Shown here: in pieces, positions 23,179 to 31,246 of the stretch
Position numbering within the stretch: position 1 is the stretch's first letter
Layout of the letters: every line of letters begins with the position of its first letter
Source: Akkermansiaceae bacterium
GTDB taxonomy: Bacteria; Verrucomicrobiota; Verrucomicrobiia; Verrucomicrobiales; Akkermansiaceae
Assembly: GCA_023263995.1 (NCBI GenBank)
Contig: JALQTQ010000004.1
Coordinates: forward strand, 1 to 41,254
DNA: 41,254 nt
Direction: 5' to 3'
The notes under the pieces: model-generated
What the model saw: the letters and a program-made list of their open reading frames with translations, nothing else
What the model was told of the DNA's origin: nothing
Databases searched by the model: none
Translations under genes and position numbers: made by a program

Positions 23179-23211
23179 AAAAAAACCGGACCTTCAGCGA
23201 AGAAGGCCCGG
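23179..23211 (-). terminator. Rho-independent terminator of the polysaccharide-export operon
   Basis: A 10-bp stem with one mismatch (23186-23195 with 23202-23211) has a 6-base loop and, on the minus strand, seven T residues. It lies 20 bases past the OPX gene stop and before the PDZ gene, so it separates the export operon from the protease unit. Confidence 0.9.
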
Positions 23212-23230
23212 CTCGGACGAAAAACAAACT

Positions 23231-23794
23231 TTAGCGATTGAGGATATTGGTCTGAGGCACCTCAATGGTATCATTGGGGTAGACAAGAATGGCCTTACTC
23301 TTCAGCTCCCTCATGTCATACACGTAAGGCTGACCACGACGATACAGCTTGACCCGATTCATCGCAGCATAAGCAGTTTCTCCACCGGCCGCTTGGATCG
23401 CGCCATACAAGGTCATCCCTTCAGTCCATTGCCGCTGGCCCGGCTGACGCACCTGCCCCCCAATGGTCAGCAGCTGGTTGTCGATCGATTTCCGGTCCTC
23501 CTCACTATAGATTTGAAAGACAGGGTCGGTGTAAATTTCAGCCGCCTTGTATTTTTCGGCGATGTTTTGAGCGAGCTCTGATTTGGTCAAACCGGCTGCC
23601 CGGACTGATCCGATCTGCCACATCGTGATCGTTCCCGAGGCAGACACCGAATAGACGTTGTCCAGTCGCCCTTTCTCAGACACCGGCACTCCGGTGATAG
23701 AAATCTGAAGGGTTTGTCCTGAACGAACAGTCTGAGCGTGGGCTGCGACAAACAATCCGAGAAGGGTCAACGTGATGATTGCAATTTTTCTCAT
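23231..23794 (-). CDS. Short Wza-like polysaccharide export (OPX) protein
   Basis: The 187 aa protein has a Sec signal peptide (MRKIAIITLTLLGLFVAAHA) with no lipobox Cys. A polysaccharide-export domain follows (about 24-100; RSGQTLQISITGVP and VSASGTITMWQIGSV). One SLBB-type domain comes next (about 108-180; LLTIGGQVRQPGQRQW, TLYGAIQAAGGETAYA, NDTIEVPQ). E. coli Wza is about twice as long and ends in an amphipathic helix that spans the outer membrane; that helix is absent here. Short OPX proteins of this kind need a separate outer-membrane barrel, and such a gene lies in the same operon. It should be the periplasmic collar of the export channel. It is last in the operon and followed by a terminator. 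Confidence 0.9.
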   Translation of the reverse strand: MRKIAIITLTLLGLFVAAHAQTVRSGQTLQISITGVPVSEKGRLDNVYSVSASGTITMWQIGSVRAAGLTKSELAQNIAEKYKAAEIYTDPVFQIYSEEDRKSIDNQLLTIGGQVRQPGQRQWTEGMTLYGAIQAAGGETAYAAMNRVKLYRRGQPYVYDMRELKSKAILVYPNDTIEVPQTNILNR

Positions 23795-23848
23795 GGTCTT
23801 TGGTTTTGGCGTTCGCGGAGTGCGGTTTTCTTTCGGGTGTCAAGAAGG

Positions 23849-26026
23849 TTAGTAGAGGTCCTCGGCCTTGGTGGAGCGGGATTCCGAAGCCGAATCTTCA
23901 ACTCGGATAGGCTTCGAGGTCGCTGGGGTGTCCATTCCAGCGGTGGCTTCGTCGGTCGCCGTCGGGGCGTAGTAGGTGTAGTAACTGGTGTAGTATTGAT
24001 ACTGACTGTCGCTACGAACATCCACGTTGTTGAGAACAACCCCGATGACCTGGCCACCGACGTTTTCAACGGCCTGCTTGACGCGCATGAGCATGTTACG
24101 GGGAAGCTTGCGATGCTGGACAACCACCATCGTGAGATCGACCTCACTGGCCAGCACCGCAGCGTCACTCACACCAAGGATGGGTGGAGAGTCCACCAGC
24201 ACGAGGTCGAAGCGCTGTTTGACATCCTGCAGCAACTCGGACATGCGACGCGAATTCAGAATCCCGGCCGCATCAGCCGGTAAAATACCGGAAGGCAAGA
24301 AGTAGAGATTGTCGACCGGGCTTTGAAGAATGACATCCTCAAGCGCGAGGTCGGTCGTCAGATAGTTGGTCAAACCAACCGAATTATTAATATCGAAGAA
24401 AGCGTGAAGGCGCGGGCGACGAAGGTCGGCATCAATCATGAGCGTGGTGTATCCGCCTTGCGCACAAACGTAAGCCAAGTTTACCAAGGTCGTTGATTTG
24501 CCCTCGCCGGCACCACCGGAAACCACCGTGATCGAGTTATCTTCCGGGTTCTTGCGGTTGAATTCGATATTGGTCCGCAAGATGCGGTAGGCTTCGGCAT
24601 CGGGGCTCATGCCACTCTGCTTGTGCAGAATTCCCACGTCCTTCGGAATGACCGCAAGCACGGGAACCTGCAGGTAACGTTCCACGTCCTCAAGGCTCTT
24701 GACTGAGGTATCAAGATGCTCAAGCAGGAAGGCAATCCCAACCCCGAAAATGAGCCCGACACCGGCACCAAGGAGCAAATTGAGAGTGAAGTTCGGAAAG
24801 ACGGGCGATTTGCCAATCTTGGGTTTCTCGTGGAGGGTAATCGGGTCACGAGGCATCTTCAGAAGCACGCGTGCTTCCTGCTGACGAATCTTCATTTCCC
24901 GCAACATCGCTCGAGACTGCTCGTAGGCTTCCTTGGCTTGGTTGTAGCGACTCTGCTTGAGCGAGAGTTCGATGGTGTCAAAGGTTTTACCCTCAACCAT
25001 CGTTTCCATACGCTCGACTTGACGATTGATCAGTTCGCGTTTGGTTTGCAAGTTGGCCTTGAGCGATACGACCTCTTTGTGGGCCTCCTCCATCAAACTC
25101 TTGGCCCGCTCATCCATGGCTAGGATGTCTGGGTGCTTCCGCCCCAATCCTTGCGCCATCATGCTGAGGCGCTCCTGCTTGGCCTCACGCGCTTGGGTGT
25201 AGTAATAAGTCACCTGGTTTTCCGGCAAATCGAGGCCAGCAGCAAAGCTGATCAAATCATCGTTATCGAGCTCAACCAACTTTTTGATCTGAATCTCAAT
25301 CTGATCCACCTGCACCTTGAAGTCATCAAGCTTCTGTCGCGCAATCTCAAGCATCTTGCTTTCCGTCATTCCCAAGGGATTAGACTGTCCCTCCTCAAAA
25401 TAAGGGATCCCATATTGCTGGATCAGAACGGTCAGTTCCTTCCTGTTATCCTGTACGATGTCACTTTGGGCCACCAGCTCGTCATCCAAGGCTTTCAGCG
25501 CCTTTTGTGCCCGGCTGACTTCATTTTGACGACGGCGCTCCATGTAAGCCGTCGAAACAGCATCCGCGATGGCCTTGGCATCGGCCGAATTAGCATGGCG
25601 AACGGAAATCTCAATAAAGTCGGTCCCACGGCGGGGAGAAGCAGAGACAATTTCCTTGAGAGTGCTAACCACTTCTTCGAGGGACTGCCCCCAGCGTGTC
25701 GGCAGCTCAATGTCCTCGGCCGCTTTCTTCAAGGTCTCCGGGGCAATGATGGTTTCAAACTCATTCTCCATGTAGTTCCGGGTCATGAGGCTTCCCGGGT
25801 TGGTCCCTCCGCCTCCGTTACCAATTGGGTTAATCGACAACATTGATGGGTGAACCTGAACTACCGAGGAACTCTCATATTTCTCCGGCATCACCGAAGT
25901 AATGACGGCCGCGGTCATGAAAACTAAGAGGAAGGTCAGGAGAATGACCCCGTAACGGTTCTTGATCACCTGCCAGTAATCAATAGAGCCGGTCGATTCG
26001 GTGATAGGCTGAGACTTCCCTTGCAT
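23849..26026 (-). CDS. Wzc-like polysaccharide co-polymerase with bacterial tyrosine kinase domain
   Basis: The 725 aa inner-membrane protein has a first helix near 30-50 (ILLTFLLVFMTAAVITS), a periplasmic Wzz domain with long coiled coils (about 60-400) and a second helix near 420-445 (LLLGAGVGLIFGVGIAFLLEHL). The cytoplasmic BY-kinase has Walker A GGAGEGKST, A' LMIDADLRRP and B LVLVDSPP. The tail has a tyrosine cluster (YQYYTSYYTYY), a usual autophosphorylation site, and ends in Tyr. It controls chain length and export through phosphorylation cycles. I chose the ATG at 26026 over the TTG at 26041. No tyrosine phosphatase or glycosyltransferase gene is nearby. Confidence 0.94.
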   Translation of the reverse strand: MQGKSQPITESTGSIDYWQVIKNRYGVILLTFLLVFMTAAVITSVMPEKYESSSVVQVHPSMLSINPIGNGGGGTNPGSLMTRNYMENEFETIIAPETLKKAAEDIELPTRWGQSLEEVVSTLKEIVSASPRRGTDFIEISVRHANSADAKAIADAVSTAYMERRRQNEVSRAQKALKALDDELVAQSDIVQDNRKELTVLIQQYGIPYFEEGQSNPLGMTESKMLEIARQKLDDFKVQVDQIEIQIKKLVELDNDDLISFAAGLDLPENQVTYYYTQAREAKQERLSMMAQGLGRKHPDILAMDERAKSLMEEAHKEVVSLKANLQTKRELINRQVERMETMVEGKTFDTIELSLKQSRYNQAKEAYEQSRAMLREMKIRQQEARVLLKMPRDPITLHEKPKIGKSPVFPNFTLNLLLGAGVGLIFGVGIAFLLEHLDTSVKSLEDVERYLQVPVLAVIPKDVGILHKQSGMSPDAEAYRILRTNIEFNRKNPEDNSITVVSGGAGEGKSTTLVNLAYVCAQGGYTTLMIDADLRRPRLHAFFDINNSVGLTNYLTTDLALEDVILQSPVDNLYFLPSGILPADAAGILNSRRMSELLQDVKQRFDLVLVDSPPILGVSDAAVLASEVDLTMVVVQHRKLPRNMLMRVKQAVENVGGQVIGVVLNNVDVRSDSQYQYYTSYYTYYAPTATDEATAGMDTPATSKPIRVEDSASESRSTKAEDLY

Positions 26027-26074
26027 GGCGTATGTTTTCAAAAGTGATGTGGTTGGGATGGGTAGGCATAAATT

Positions 26075-26106
26075 AGCCTTCGCAATGAAAAGACACCGCG
26101 AAGGCC
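26075..26106 (-). other. Intergenic hairpin between barrel and kinase genes
   Basis: A 9-bp stem (26075-26083 with 26098-26106, including one G-U pair in the minus transcript) has a 14-base loop and lies in the 109-base gap of the export operon. It is followed by TAATTTATG rather than a true T-run. It may act as a weak attenuator, an RNA-processing site or an mRNA-stabilising element between the barrel and the kinase. Confidence 0.45.
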
Positions 26107-26135
26107 AAATTGTTCAAAGATAAACCTGAAGCTCT

Positions 26136-27365
26136 TTAGAAAGTGGTGGTAGCACCAATGCTGATCCGATTCCGATCGTAGTCGCGGCCCGCATCCGAGC
26201 TAAGGTCCTCAAAGTTATACCTTGCGTTCAGGTTGAGTGCGTCGGTAACTTGGAGGTTCACCCCAACGTAAGCATTCAGCAACTCCTCCTCGATAGCCGC
26301 AGGACCAATCAAGCCGCGACGCTCGGTGAAATCAAGGAAAACGTAGTTGATTCCCCCGGTGAAAACCAATTGCTCGGAGAGCTGGTAGTCTCCGCTCACG
26401 CCGATGCGGAGAGTGTCAGTATTGTCGTAAAGGACCCCACCAACAGCTGGAATATTCAAGAAGCGCTGCCAGTCCTCCACGCCGTAACGGGCATAGCTAC
26501 GAACTGCGAAACTCTCGTTCACTTGAGTTCTCACGGAGGCCTCTAAATACGGGCTGCTACTATCCTTACCCCCATCGACGTCGCGGACTTGGACACCACC
26601 TCGGACCACCCCGTATGATTGTGGGGTGAAGCGATGCTCAATACCTGCAAGGATGAATTGGTTAGTGGCGTCACTGACTTGAGCATCGGCGCTCACGTCT
26701 TGGTAACGATACGAAAACGTAGTTACGGTGCGCTCACTCACCTGGTAACGGAAGTCGTTGTAAAGCGTAACCAAGGAGCGATCACCACCAGGGATATCAT
26801 CGAAAGTGATCCCCTCGAAGCGAATACCAGAGTAGGTCGCCAAGCGCTCGGTCCAACGATAACCGACAGCACTGTCGCTCGACCAGCGGAGATAGTTACC
26901 GACTTGGCGCTGTGCTTGGAAGCCGATGGAATAATCCGGCTCGAGTTCGTAAGTGATGTTGTTCCGGCTAACAAAACGAAGGCGCTCGCTTACCCTGCGG
27001 GTCCAATTCAGATTGAGAGATGCAGTGAAAGCAGTATCGTCGACACTCCGACCAGGCACATCCAAGTTGTCGAAGTAGTGAATCACTCCGATTTGGGCCC
27101 CGAAGTCCAAATCAGTCTGTGGGCTAGTGCTCAGGAACGCCGCACGAACGTAACCCTGCCCATAAAGAGCCGAATCCCCCCCGATGAGCGGGGTAGGATT
27201 GTCATCGTATCCGAAATTGACGCCAGCGGTGTAGGTGAGAGGAAGCGACTCGCTGCTACCATCTTCTGGTGCCAGATCATAAAGAGACTTGGCGCTCGGA
27301 GTGCCGGCTGCCGAGAGAGCGGCAGAGGCAACAAGAGCCGTGAGGCCTACGGAATATTTTTTCAT
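26136..27365 (-). CDS. Outer-membrane beta-barrel protein of the polysaccharide-export operon
   Basis: The 409 aa protein has a signal peptide (MKKYSVGLTALVASAALSAAG) and many amphipathic strands with alternating hydrophobic residues separated by short turns. Examples are TYTAGVNFGYDDNP, TVTTFSYRYQDVSA and FAVRSYARYGVEDW. It ends in Phe (ISIGATTTF), the outer-membrane barrel insertion signal. The first strands (GVNFGYDDNP) recall the BBP2_2 barrel group. It lies between an unknown secreted protein and the Wzc-like kinase. Together with the short OPX protein it would form the outer-membrane pore for the polymer. I chose the ATG at 27365 because the ORF's earlier start adds only nine residues before the signal peptide. 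Confidence 0.87.
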   Translation of the reverse strand: MKKYSVGLTALVASAALSAAGTPSAKSLYDLAPEDGSSESLPLTYTAGVNFGYDDNPTPLIGGDSALYGQGYVRAAFLSTSPQTDLDFGAQIGVIHYFDNLDVPGRSVDDTAFTASLNLNWTRRVSERLRFVSRNNITYELEPDYSIGFQAQRQVGNYLRWSSDSAVGYRWTERLATYSGIRFEGITFDDIPGGDRSLVTLYNDFRYQVSERTVTTFSYRYQDVSADAQVSDATNQFILAGIEHRFTPQSYGVVRGGVQVRDVDGGKDSSSPYLEASVRTQVNESFAVRSYARYGVEDWQRFLNIPAVGGVLYDNTDTLRIGVSGDYQLSEQLVFTGGINYVFLDFTERRGLIGPAAIEEELLNAYVGVNLQVTDALNLNARYNFEDLSSDAGRDYDRNRISIGATTTF

Positions 27366-27412
27366 CGTTGAATTATTTAAGGTTTTAACCATCCCAAATC
27401 GTTGGAGAATGT

Positions 27413-28066
27413 TCAGTCGTTGATCGAACTGTCAGGGACAGGGGTCGTTACGCCCGGATCATCCTCAACCGGCTCAATGAAAAACTCGGGAGCAGTCCGC
27501 ACATCAGCTCCCTTGCTGATCGGACTGATCATCGTGCTCTGGAAGGGCGAATTAAGAGGGTTGTAGGAGACACTACTGAACGCTGCCTCACCCCCACCAG
27601 CCGAGGAACCGCCTGTTGAAGAGCCCCCTTCGGATGAAGACCCAGTTTCGGACGAGACACCCTCGGGCGCGGGCCCAGCTTCGGAAGAAGAATCAGCCTC
27701 CGAAGAAGAATCATCTTCAGTGGTCACAGCGAGAACAACTGCGATGGCGTCCGGAGCGGTCGCAATCGCACACTGGGTAATCATTCGCGCTTCAGAAGGC
27801 GCCTCAAGAATGGCAGTGCTAACGATCTTACCAACAAGAGCCTCGTCGGCGTCTGCCGCGATGATGGCCGCCTTGACGATTTCACACGCACAGGACTCGT
27901 TAGCAGCCACATTGCTTGCGACGATCCGAAGAACCTGACTGGAGTCGGCGACAACAGCAGCCTTGACCGTCTCGCTGAGCTTGGCGCAATCCTTGGCGCC
28001 TGCCGCCGCGATCGGAGCAGCCGAGAGAAGCGCCGCTGAAAGAGCAAATTTGAGGGTATTTTTCAT
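27413..28066 (-). CDS. Secreted Ser/Gly/Glu-rich protein of unknown function in the export operon
   Basis: The 217 aa protein has a signal peptide (MKNTLKFALSAALLSAAPIAAAG). A compact helical domain (about 24-115) contains four cysteines (CAKLS, CAC, QCA) and repeated Val/Ala-rich helices (VKAAVVADSSQVLRIVASN, VGKIVSTAILEAP). A low-complexity acidic Ser/Gly stretch follows (about 117-160, with SSSEA, SSSEG and GGSS units), then a Pro/Asp-rich C-terminus. It is the first gene of the export operon, 47 bases before the barrel gene. The helical part looks like tandem units of about 35 residues. I do not recognise the family, and a role as a periplasmic or surface accessory of polymer export is only inferred from position. 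Confidence 0.78.
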   Translation of the reverse strand: MKNTLKFALSAALLSAAPIAAAGAKDCAKLSETVKAAVVADSSQVLRIVASNVAANESCACEIVKAAIIAADADEALVGKIVSTAILEAPSEARMITQCAIATAPDAIAVVLAVTTEDDSSSEADSSSEAGPAPEGVSSETGSSSEGGSSTGGSSAGGGEAAFSSVSYNPLNSPFQSTMISPISKGADVRTAPEFFIEPVEDDPGVTTPVPDSSIND

Positions 28067-28124: not shown

Positions 28125-28198
28125 TGGAGCGGGTAGAGGGAATCGAACCCTCATGATCAGCTTGGAAGGCTGGAGCTTTACCATTAAGCTATACCCGC
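28125..28198 (-). tRNA. tRNA-Gly (anticodon TCC)
   Basis: The 74-base cloverleaf includes an encoded CCA. The acceptor pair is GCGGGTA/TACCCGC with discriminator T, the D stem is GCTT/AAGC, the anticodon loop is CTTCCAA (TCC, glycine) and the T arm is GAGGG-TTCGATT-CCCTC. The outermost anticodon-stem pair (27-43) is a C-A mismatch, where many bacterial tRNA-Gly(TCC) have C-G. It lies 58 bases upstream of the export operon on the same strand, with no terminator seen between them. Confidence 0.97.
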
Positions 28199-28210: not shown

Positions 28211-28239
28211 AAACTAAACTTCTCTTTCCTGCTCTGCAA
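28211..28239 (-). promoter_or_regulatory. Possible sigma70-type promoter for tRNA-Gly
   Basis: On the minus strand TTGCAG (28234-28239) is followed after 17 bases by TAGTTT (28211-28216), 12 bases before the tRNA 5' end. Spacing and position suit a promoter, but each hexamer matches consensus at only about three positions. Confidence 0.28.
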
Positions 28240-29935: not shown

Positions 29936-31246
29936 ATGTCGCAGATGGAGCACACCCTCGCCAGCGAGGCCACCCTCGAAGGAACCTCTCTCCACACCGG
30001 AGAAAAAGTCACCTTGACCCTGAAGCCGGCCCCCGAGGGCTACGGATTCAAGTTCCGTCGAGTGGACCTTCCGGACAAACCGCTCATCGACGCCTGCGTC
30101 TCCAAAGTGCAGACGGTGGAGCGGGCCACCACCCTTGCCGAGGGCTCGGTCCGGGTGCACACCGTGGAGCATGTTCTCTCCGCGCTCGTGGGCATGGGAG
30201 TGGACAATGCGGTGATCGAAATGGACTCCAACGAACCCCCGATCGGTGACGGATCCTCGCGGCCCTACGTCGAGCTCATCAAAAAGGCCGGGCTTCAGGA
30301 GCAGAAAACCCCACGCAAGATCTGGGAAATCCGGGAGCCCATCCACCTCGAAATCGGCGACGGGTCCCTCATCACGATCGTTCCCGACAAGCAATTTCGT
30401 GTCTCGGTCACCAACGTCGGCAAAGACGGGCGCTTCGTGCAATATTTCTCCTCCGTGGTGACACCCGAACTCTACGAAAAAGAGATCGCCCCCGCCCGGA
30501 CTTTCACTTTCTACGAGGACATCAAGCCTCTCCTCGACAAAGGACTCATCAAAGGCGGTTCACTCGAAAACGCGGTCGTGGTGCGCGGCGACGAGATCAT
30601 GTCGAAGGAACCCATGCGCTACGACAACGAATTCGCCCGCCACAAAGCGCTTGATGTCATCGGTGACCTCATGCTTTCAGGGCGAAAATTCATCGGTCAC
30701 GTCATCGCGGTAAAACCCGGTCACGGGCCCAACACCGAAGCGGCCAAAGCCCTGCGCAAGAACTATGCTGCGATGCGCTCGATGGTCCCCCCGGTCAAAC
30801 TTCCCGAGGCAGAGGCCGTCCTCGACATCAAGGACATCCTCAAGATCCTGCCCCATCGCTACCCCTTCCTTCTCATCGATCGCGTGACCGGCTTCTCTTC
30901 GGAGATGAAGTGCACCGCGATCAAGAATCTCACCATGAACGAGGAGTTCTTTCAGGGCCACTTCCCGGACCACCCGGTCATGCCAGGGGTCCTGCAGCTC
31001 GAGGCAATGGCCCAAACCGCCTCCGTCCTCATCATGCGCATGCCCGATAACCAAGGCAAAATTGGCTATTTCCTGAGCGCCGACAAAGTCAAATTCCGGA
31101 AGCCGGTTGTTCCTGGCGATACCCTCTTCATCGATGCCGAAATCCTCTCATTCCGTCGCAACATCGGGACCGCGGTGGCCTCCTGCTCGGTCAACGGCGA
31201 GGTGGTCTCAAGCGCCGAGCTGAAATTCGCGGTGGTGGATTCCTGA
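29936..31246 (+). CDS. lpxC/fabZ: Bifunctional LpxC deacetylase / FabZ dehydratase fusion
   Basis: The 436 aa protein joins two enzymes. Residues about 1-285 are LpxC, which deacetylates UDP-3-acyl-GlcNAc in the committed step of lipid A synthesis. Its zinc ligands are in VHTVEHVLSAL and in FARHKALDVIGDL, and its substrate-loop motif is PIGDGSS. Residues about 292-436 are FabZ, the 3-hydroxyacyl-ACP dehydratase, with HRYPFLLIDRV and the catalytic His and Glu in GHFPDHPVMPGVLQLEAMAQ. Both active sites look intact. Fusion of these genes is known in Bacteroidota and Verrucomicrobiota and ties the shared hydroxyacyl-ACP pool of the two pathways together. It is divergent from the rluA-family gene. 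Other lpx genes (lpxD, lpxA) are not in the window. Confidence 0.97.
   Translation: MSQMEHTLASEATLEGTSLHTGEKVTLTLKPAPEGYGFKFRRVDLPDKPLIDACVSKVQTVERATTLAEGSVRVHTVEHVLSALVGMGVDNAVIEMDSNEPPIGDGSSRPYVELIKKAGLQEQKTPRKIWEIREPIHLEIGDGSLITIVPDKQFRVSVTNVGKDGRFVQYFSSVVTPELYEKEIAPARTFTFYEDIKPLLDKGLIKGGSLENAVVVRGDEIMSKEPMRYDNEFARHKALDVIGDLMLSGRKFIGHVIAVKPGHGPNTEAAKALRKNYAAMRSMVPPVKLPEAEAVLDIKDILKILPHRYPFLLIDRVTGFSSEMKCTAIKNLTMNEEFFQGHFPDHPVMPGVLQLEAMAQTASVLIMRMPDNQGKIGYFLSADKVKFRKPVVPGDTLFIDAEILSFRRNIGTAVASCSVNGEVVSSAELKFAVVDS

Follow-up and report, generated by a model that had tools for sequence, protein, structure and literature searches.

Composite translocons, in which a short outer-membrane polysaccharide export (OPX) protein works with a separate β-barrel, were described for EpsX/EpsY of Myxococcus xanthus in 2022 (PMC9601211), together with a class 3 of OPX proteins (PMC9603273), and the type is described as widespread (PMC9601211, PMC9603273). 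Here we have investigated a four-gene locus in a 41,254-nucleotide stretch of DNA (the window) from an uncultured Akkermansiaceae bacterium (assembly GCA_023263995.1, contig JALQTQ010000004.1, forward strand). The genes lie on the minus strand in the order D1, a secreted protein; D2, an outer-membrane barrel; D3, a Wzc-like bacterial tyrosine (BY) kinase; and D4, a short OPX protein. As the translocon class is already known, the window system is a variant of it. Together they probably form an exit in two parts through which a sugar polymer crosses the outer membrane, and we consider it likely that the locus provides the export half of a Wzx/Wzy-type exopolysaccharide system associated with an exosortase, in which an OPX ring sits under a barrel pore and expression is driven from a tRNA promoter.

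The export genes and their conservation

D4 matches Poly_export (PF02563) at 46.3 bits against a cut-off of 28 and also exceeds the cut-off for SLBB. Its signal sequence, judged by eye to be of the Sec/SPI type, ends at AHA/Q with no Cys at the cleavage site, a lipobox is absent, and the ∼19 residues that follow the SLBB match contain no C-terminal outer-membrane helix as read from the sequence. These features, and the length of 187 aa, agree with an earlier note made from the letters of this DNA alone. The 78 orthologues of D4 are 179–204 aa long with one lipobox-like match among them, and among its relatives of known structure in the PDB are PslD, Wza and further short OPX chains. A Wza-type translocon was considered and rejected, as the window OPX ends shortly after SLBB and lacks the pore-forming C-terminal amphipathic helix. 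The earlier note had made its proposal depend on there being no second, full-length Wza elsewhere; no second OPX was found in the 3.85 Mb host genome, which is 81% complete, and six congeners at 92–96% completeness each encode a single OPX, of the short type. Tandem pairs of OPX genes occur in the operons of two loci (L094 and L057), the former also carrying a second kinase-like open reading frame (ORF).

Composite translocons were recognised by an OPX protein of at most 280 aa with a PES motif, a barrel gene within five genes and a barrel of 18 strands. D4 is of this kind and has no C-terminal helix, the barrel gene lies two genes away with conserved linkage, and 18 strands are predicted for D2. 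The lipoprotein signal is absent from D4; among translocons of the EpsX/EpsY type this signal is usual in myxobacteria but is no requirement elsewhere. In that type, OPX and barrel also bind and stabilise one another. Thus domains, fold and linkage support the composite route that the earlier note had proposed.

D2 is 409 aa counted from an ATG followed by a good signal sequence, an upstream ATG giving 418 aa. In its AlphaFold2 (AF2) model pLDDT exceeds 90 over most of the chain (mean 87). Foldseek returned the 18-stranded OpdK/OccK channels first and the alginate exporter AlgE ninth, with TM-scores of ∼0.5, modest values that indicate a fold class and are no evidence of close kinship. The nearest solved folds therefore include nutrient channels, and the Akkermansia muciniphila barrel Amuc_1412 is annotated as a putative porin, a strain in which only Gln134Pro was changed binding mucin normally (PMC13055324). 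Such observations favour a barrel that is an ordinary solute porin, co-transcribed by chance, with the OPX exporting alone or through an unlinked pore. We regard this as quite improbable, as an export barrel, AlgE, is also among the fold matches, the OPX has no membrane-spanning part, D2 homologues show weak but recurrent similarity to PEP-CTERM/exopolysaccharide outer-membrane proteins (TIGR03016 in 40 and EpsL in 14 of 63) and, in 80 named loci, the barrel is flanked by D1 (or the tRNA) on one side and the kinase on the other wherever the contig allows.

D3 exceeds the cut-off for TIGR01007 (174.6 against 108.05 bits) and contains Walker A (GGAGEGKST), Walker A' (IDADLRRP) and Walker B (LVDSPP) motifs and a C-terminal Tyr cluster (YQYYTSYYTYY), the features that define BY-kinases of the Wzc family of polysaccharide co-polymerases (PCP-2a). 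An alternative start at 26041 would give 730 aa. The kinase ends in EDLY (window 23849–23860), and DLY or DLF is kept lineage-wide at the extreme end behind a variable linker; this conserved end is a possible binding tail.

The 80 named verrucomicrobial loci were picked by kinase alignment, the barrel alignment having no conserved stretches. The exact order D1-D2-D3-D4 is found in 61 of them and D2-D3-D4 in 14 more, five of these from Akkermansia and several truncated at contig ends. All named genomes with a related operon are Verrucomicrobiota, including Roseibacillus, Luteolibacter, Haloferula and Prosthecobacter. Of 142 genomes sampled across the order, 105 are matched by the barrel model and 89 by the D1 model. 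Both are present in 81, and in 73 of these D1 directly precedes the barrel gene. Distant relatives of the barrel are spread through the phylum. This recurrent order, and the distribution of D1 and barrel, indicate that the set of four genes is genuine and ancient and that D1 is lineage-restricted. The four ORFs are thus confirmed where the earlier note had placed them, and the conserved gene order that it suggested looking for in relatives is present. The verrucomicrobial origin it had claimed is likewise borne out, the host belonging to the same family as Akkermansia; one genus among its family mates, with genomes of 2.2–3.5 Mb, has a kinase that matches a named A. muciniphila record at 100% identity.

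Table 1. Position of the export genes and associated elements in the window.
Feature	Position	Strand	Basis or description
Terminator-like intrinsic hairpin after the OPX gene	23183..23214	-	13 pairs, then T-run
D4, short OPX, 187 aa, PES + SLBB	23231..23794	-	Pfam over cut-off
D3, Wzc-like PCP/BY-kinase, 725 aa	23849..26026	-	TIGR01007 over cut-off, alignment, motifs
D2, outer-membrane β-barrel, 409 aa	26136..27365	-	AF2, Foldseek, weak TIGR03016/EpsL similarity
D1, secreted protein, 217 aa	27413..28066	-	Six-helix domain and disordered tail, AF2
tRNA-Gly, anticodon UCC	28125..28198	-	ARAGORN; first gene of inferred transcript
Probable promoter, TTGCAG (28239-28234), 17-nt spacer, TAGTTT (28216-28211), A-tract ahead	28211..28239	-	Conserved position

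A tRNA-Gly(UCC) gene ahead of the operon

The operon had been thought to start at D1, an assignment that we correct, since the tRNA-Gly(UCC) gene, 58 nt before D1, appears to head it. In all 70 named loci with enough sequence, A. muciniphila included, this tRNA gene precedes the barrel gene in the same orientation, and neighbouring protein genes are kept less consistently (NIF3 in 48 of 66, Prc in 50 of 63). The gap between tRNA and D1 is 26–60 nt in the 54 loci measured, and no conserved element or separate promoter was seen within it in these loci. Conservation is instead observed ahead of the tRNA, where an A-tract is present and CTTG occurs ∼43 nt upstream in 72 of 78 loci (shuffled mean 3.2, maximum 9). 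Combined, the unbroken adjacency, the short gap with no promoter and the conserved promoter before the tRNA suggest co-transcription: the simplest reading is that tRNA-Gly(UCC) and the export genes share one primary transcript, from which the mRNA would be freed by tRNA 3' processing. The export operon apparently shares the promoter of this essential tRNA, single-copy in the host and most congener genomes, across Verrucomicrobiales.

It is unlikely, in our estimation, that the tRNA is a mere long-standing neighbour or an old integration site ahead of an operon with a promoter of its own. tRNA genes are common integration sites, the evidence for co-transcription is drawn from DNA, and one family (f3) and some others either lack the tRNA here or have it at a greater distance from the first operon gene. 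Against this, the adjacency has outlasted flanking protein genes, a conserved promoter with its leader would not fit a gap so short and so variable, and the promoter-like element precedes the tRNA. The tRNA-led arrangement looks new, no earlier description having been found. A literature search for tRNAs co-transcribed with polysaccharide genes returned nothing relevant, although subscription papers were mostly outside its coverage and novelty is unproven thereby; a search for Akkermansia transcription starts found none.

Two variations in the tRNA region were also observed. In one congener the otherwise single-copy tRNA-Gly(UCC) is split by an insertion or partial duplication (G016:C228:10574-10974, within L029), bases 18–74 and 1–41 being ∼303 bp from each other and 24 bp being repeated. 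In L062–L070 and other loci, a divergent tRNA-Gly(CCC) stands head-to-head with tRNA-Gly(UCC), ∼140–180 nt before it; none is present in the window.

The secreted protein D1 and the Akkermansia counterpart

In the AF2 model D1 consists of a helical domain (residues 24–120, six helices, four Cys, pLDDT ∼97) followed by a disordered tail rich in Ser, Gly and Pro. It has no relative in Pfam, NCBIfam or the PDB and its model gave no significant fold match. The family is present in 45 of the 58 relatives sampled at close and order level and in 10 of 241 genomes sampled phylum-wide, every one in Verrucomicrobiales, so that in the samples searched it is restricted to one order, in line with the lineage-specific fourth component that had been suggested. 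D1 is an undescribed secreted protein that looks new relative to known translocons. The tails of 43 out of 48 homologues contain NPL, usually as NPLDFPG, shuffled tails giving no more than 7, and since the motif is kept in otherwise disordered sequence it is likely to be a short binding motif.

What D1 does is less certain, and the possibility that it is a secreted matrix or surface protein, exported beside the polymer and no part of the translocon, is a serious one to which we nevertheless give somewhat less than even weight. Its tails are variable, a 1396-aa homologue (L109:1361-5551) carrying many Ig-like repeats behind the D1 domain and those in L104 and L126 having long Ala-rich helical repeats; stand-alone paralogues occur, and the protein in the same slot in Akkermansia differs from D1 in sequence. 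In contrast, the invariant residues and Cys of the helical domain, the conservation of NPL within a disordered tail and the fixed position just ahead of the barrel gene argue for a role tied to the translocon.

In A. muciniphila (L062), tRNA-Gly(UCC) is followed by genes for a secreted helical protein (224 aa), a barrel (404 aa), a kinase (735 aa) and an OPX (201 aa). This fits amuc_1411-1414, locus tags being matched by order, lengths and published description and not by accession, which has been called a separate predicted exopolysaccharide locus (PMC13343947). The kinase Amuc_1413 (735 aa) is phase-variable, a poly-G frameshift abolishing mucin binding, and expression of both Amuc_1412, the putative porin, and Amuc_1413 is constant and high (PMC13055324), which a tRNA-led transcript would fit. 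The window kinase gene does not contain the poly-G tract. The Akkermansia slot protein carries NPL in its tail; its homology to D1 was considered and is unsupported (profile comparison probability 2.4%).

Synthesis genes, proposed mechanism and known systems

None of the main ORFs in the window could be recognised as a glycosyltransferase, flippase or polymerase, as the earlier note had observed of the genes beside the operon. Its view that synthesis is encoded apart from export is right, although the distance is short: the genus usually has one initiating glycosylphosphotransferase (PGT), beside a Wzy-like gene, and five congeners encode the pair ∼23 kb ahead of the export operon, in the same orientation. 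One congener (G016) has a tight operon of exosortase (TIGR02602, 133.7 against 105.55 bits), EpsI (DUF3485), PGT (TIGR03025, 349.9 against 295.55) and Wzy (Wzy_C), and another contig of the host, C518, carries an exosortase cut by the contig end, EpsI, PGT and Wzy. Exosortase, EpsI, PGT and polymerase thus occupy one locus, as in exosortase-associated exopolysaccharide systems. Of the wzx and wzy genes that the earlier note had proposed to locate elsewhere, wzy is accounted for by this operon, but Wzx, sought with the single model PF01943, was detected in only 11 of 27 congeners.

The six congeners with a single OPX also have a single PGT each, suggesting that the export and synthesis operons are natural partners. 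Across the order, 100 genomes have both barrel and exosortase, 5 the barrel only, 21 the exosortase only and 16 neither, and within Akkermansia the corresponding numbers are 16, 1, 0 and 6, the two being kept or lost together; any exosortase was counted and shared ancestry ignored. This pairing looks new, as no earlier description was found. XrtA/PEP-CTERM export components were rejected as an identification of the window proteins, which score far below the curated cut-offs: 54.3 against 180 bits for TIGR03027, 126.7 against 230.65 for TIGR03018 and 26.8 against 90.85 for TIGR03016, the last being the score of D2.

We propose that the inner-membrane BY-kinase/co-polymerase would hand the polymer, as it grows, to a ring that the short OPX forms in the periplasm. 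Since this ring has no outer-membrane helix like that of Wza, it may dock beneath the 18-stranded barrel, which would be the actual pore. The polymer would be made by the single PGT and the Wzy of the separate exosortase operon. The export genes would be transcribed from the tRNA-Gly(UCC) promoter, tRNA 3'-end processing leaving the mRNA, and their expression would thereby be tied to growth. D1 would be an exported helper: its helical domain, and the tail with NPLDFPG, may bind the barrel or the OPX, or travel to the surface with the polymer.

Several observations weigh against this proposal. Contact between OPX and barrel is a prediction, and co-transcription is deduced from DNA. No consistent Wzx was identified, several good genomes having none. 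D1 paralogues exist away from the operon, operons in family f3 and several in f2 lack D1, and the Akkermansia slot protein is not supported as its homologue. Furthermore, Amuc_1412 point mutants show no mucin-binding phenotype of their own (PMC13055324).

If the proposal is true, a testable rule holds across the order, surface-polymer export sharing the promoter of a tRNA; D1 becomes a candidate for a new subunit in the third class of polysaccharide translocons; and Akkermansia, a gut commensal in wide use, gains a defined mechanism for its poorly understood exopolysaccharide locus, in which Amuc_1412 is the polymer pore of the Amuc_1413 system. A bolder version, that the genes of this order-wide export machine are expressed as the tail of the tRNA-Gly(UCC) transcript, that NPLDFPG of a D1 subunit plugs or gates the barrel and that a diverged Akkermansia version controls mucin binding, is tentative and, taken as a whole, rather doubtful.

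Elsewhere in the window, an 1803-aa ORF, in which only a lamin-tail domain was recognised, runs from the contig edge (2–5413), and an LpxC-FabZ fusion gene, assigned by sequence reading (29936–31246), points away from a gene whose product has a pseudouridine-synthase-like C-terminus.

Among known systems, the locus resembles EpsX/EpsY in its short OPX of the D1D2 domain type with no outer-membrane helix, adjacent 18-stranded barrel gene and linked PCP, and differs in a non-lipoprotein OPX, the extra secreted protein D1, a tRNA-led operon and a separate locus for synthesis that includes an exosortase. With Wza-Wzc of the Escherichia coli group 1 capsule it shares an OPX and a BY-kinase with C-terminal Tyr cluster, whereas Wza has an OPX domain D3 and a C-terminal helix and forms its own pore, with no barrel translocon. 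XrtA/XrtB PEP-CTERM systems (TIGR03027, TIGR03016, EpsL; Haft 2006, PMC1569441) likewise have exosortase, EpsI and PGT and similar OPX, kinase and outer-membrane protein families, while here the genes are split into two operons and the export proteins fall far under curated cut-offs. Closest in layout is amuc_1411-1414, with the same order of tRNA, slot protein, barrel, kinase and OPX and a kinase of the 735 aa reported for Amuc_1413, from which the window locus differs in that the slot protein is not demonstrably homologous to D1 and the Akkermansia kinase carries a poly-G phase-variation tract.

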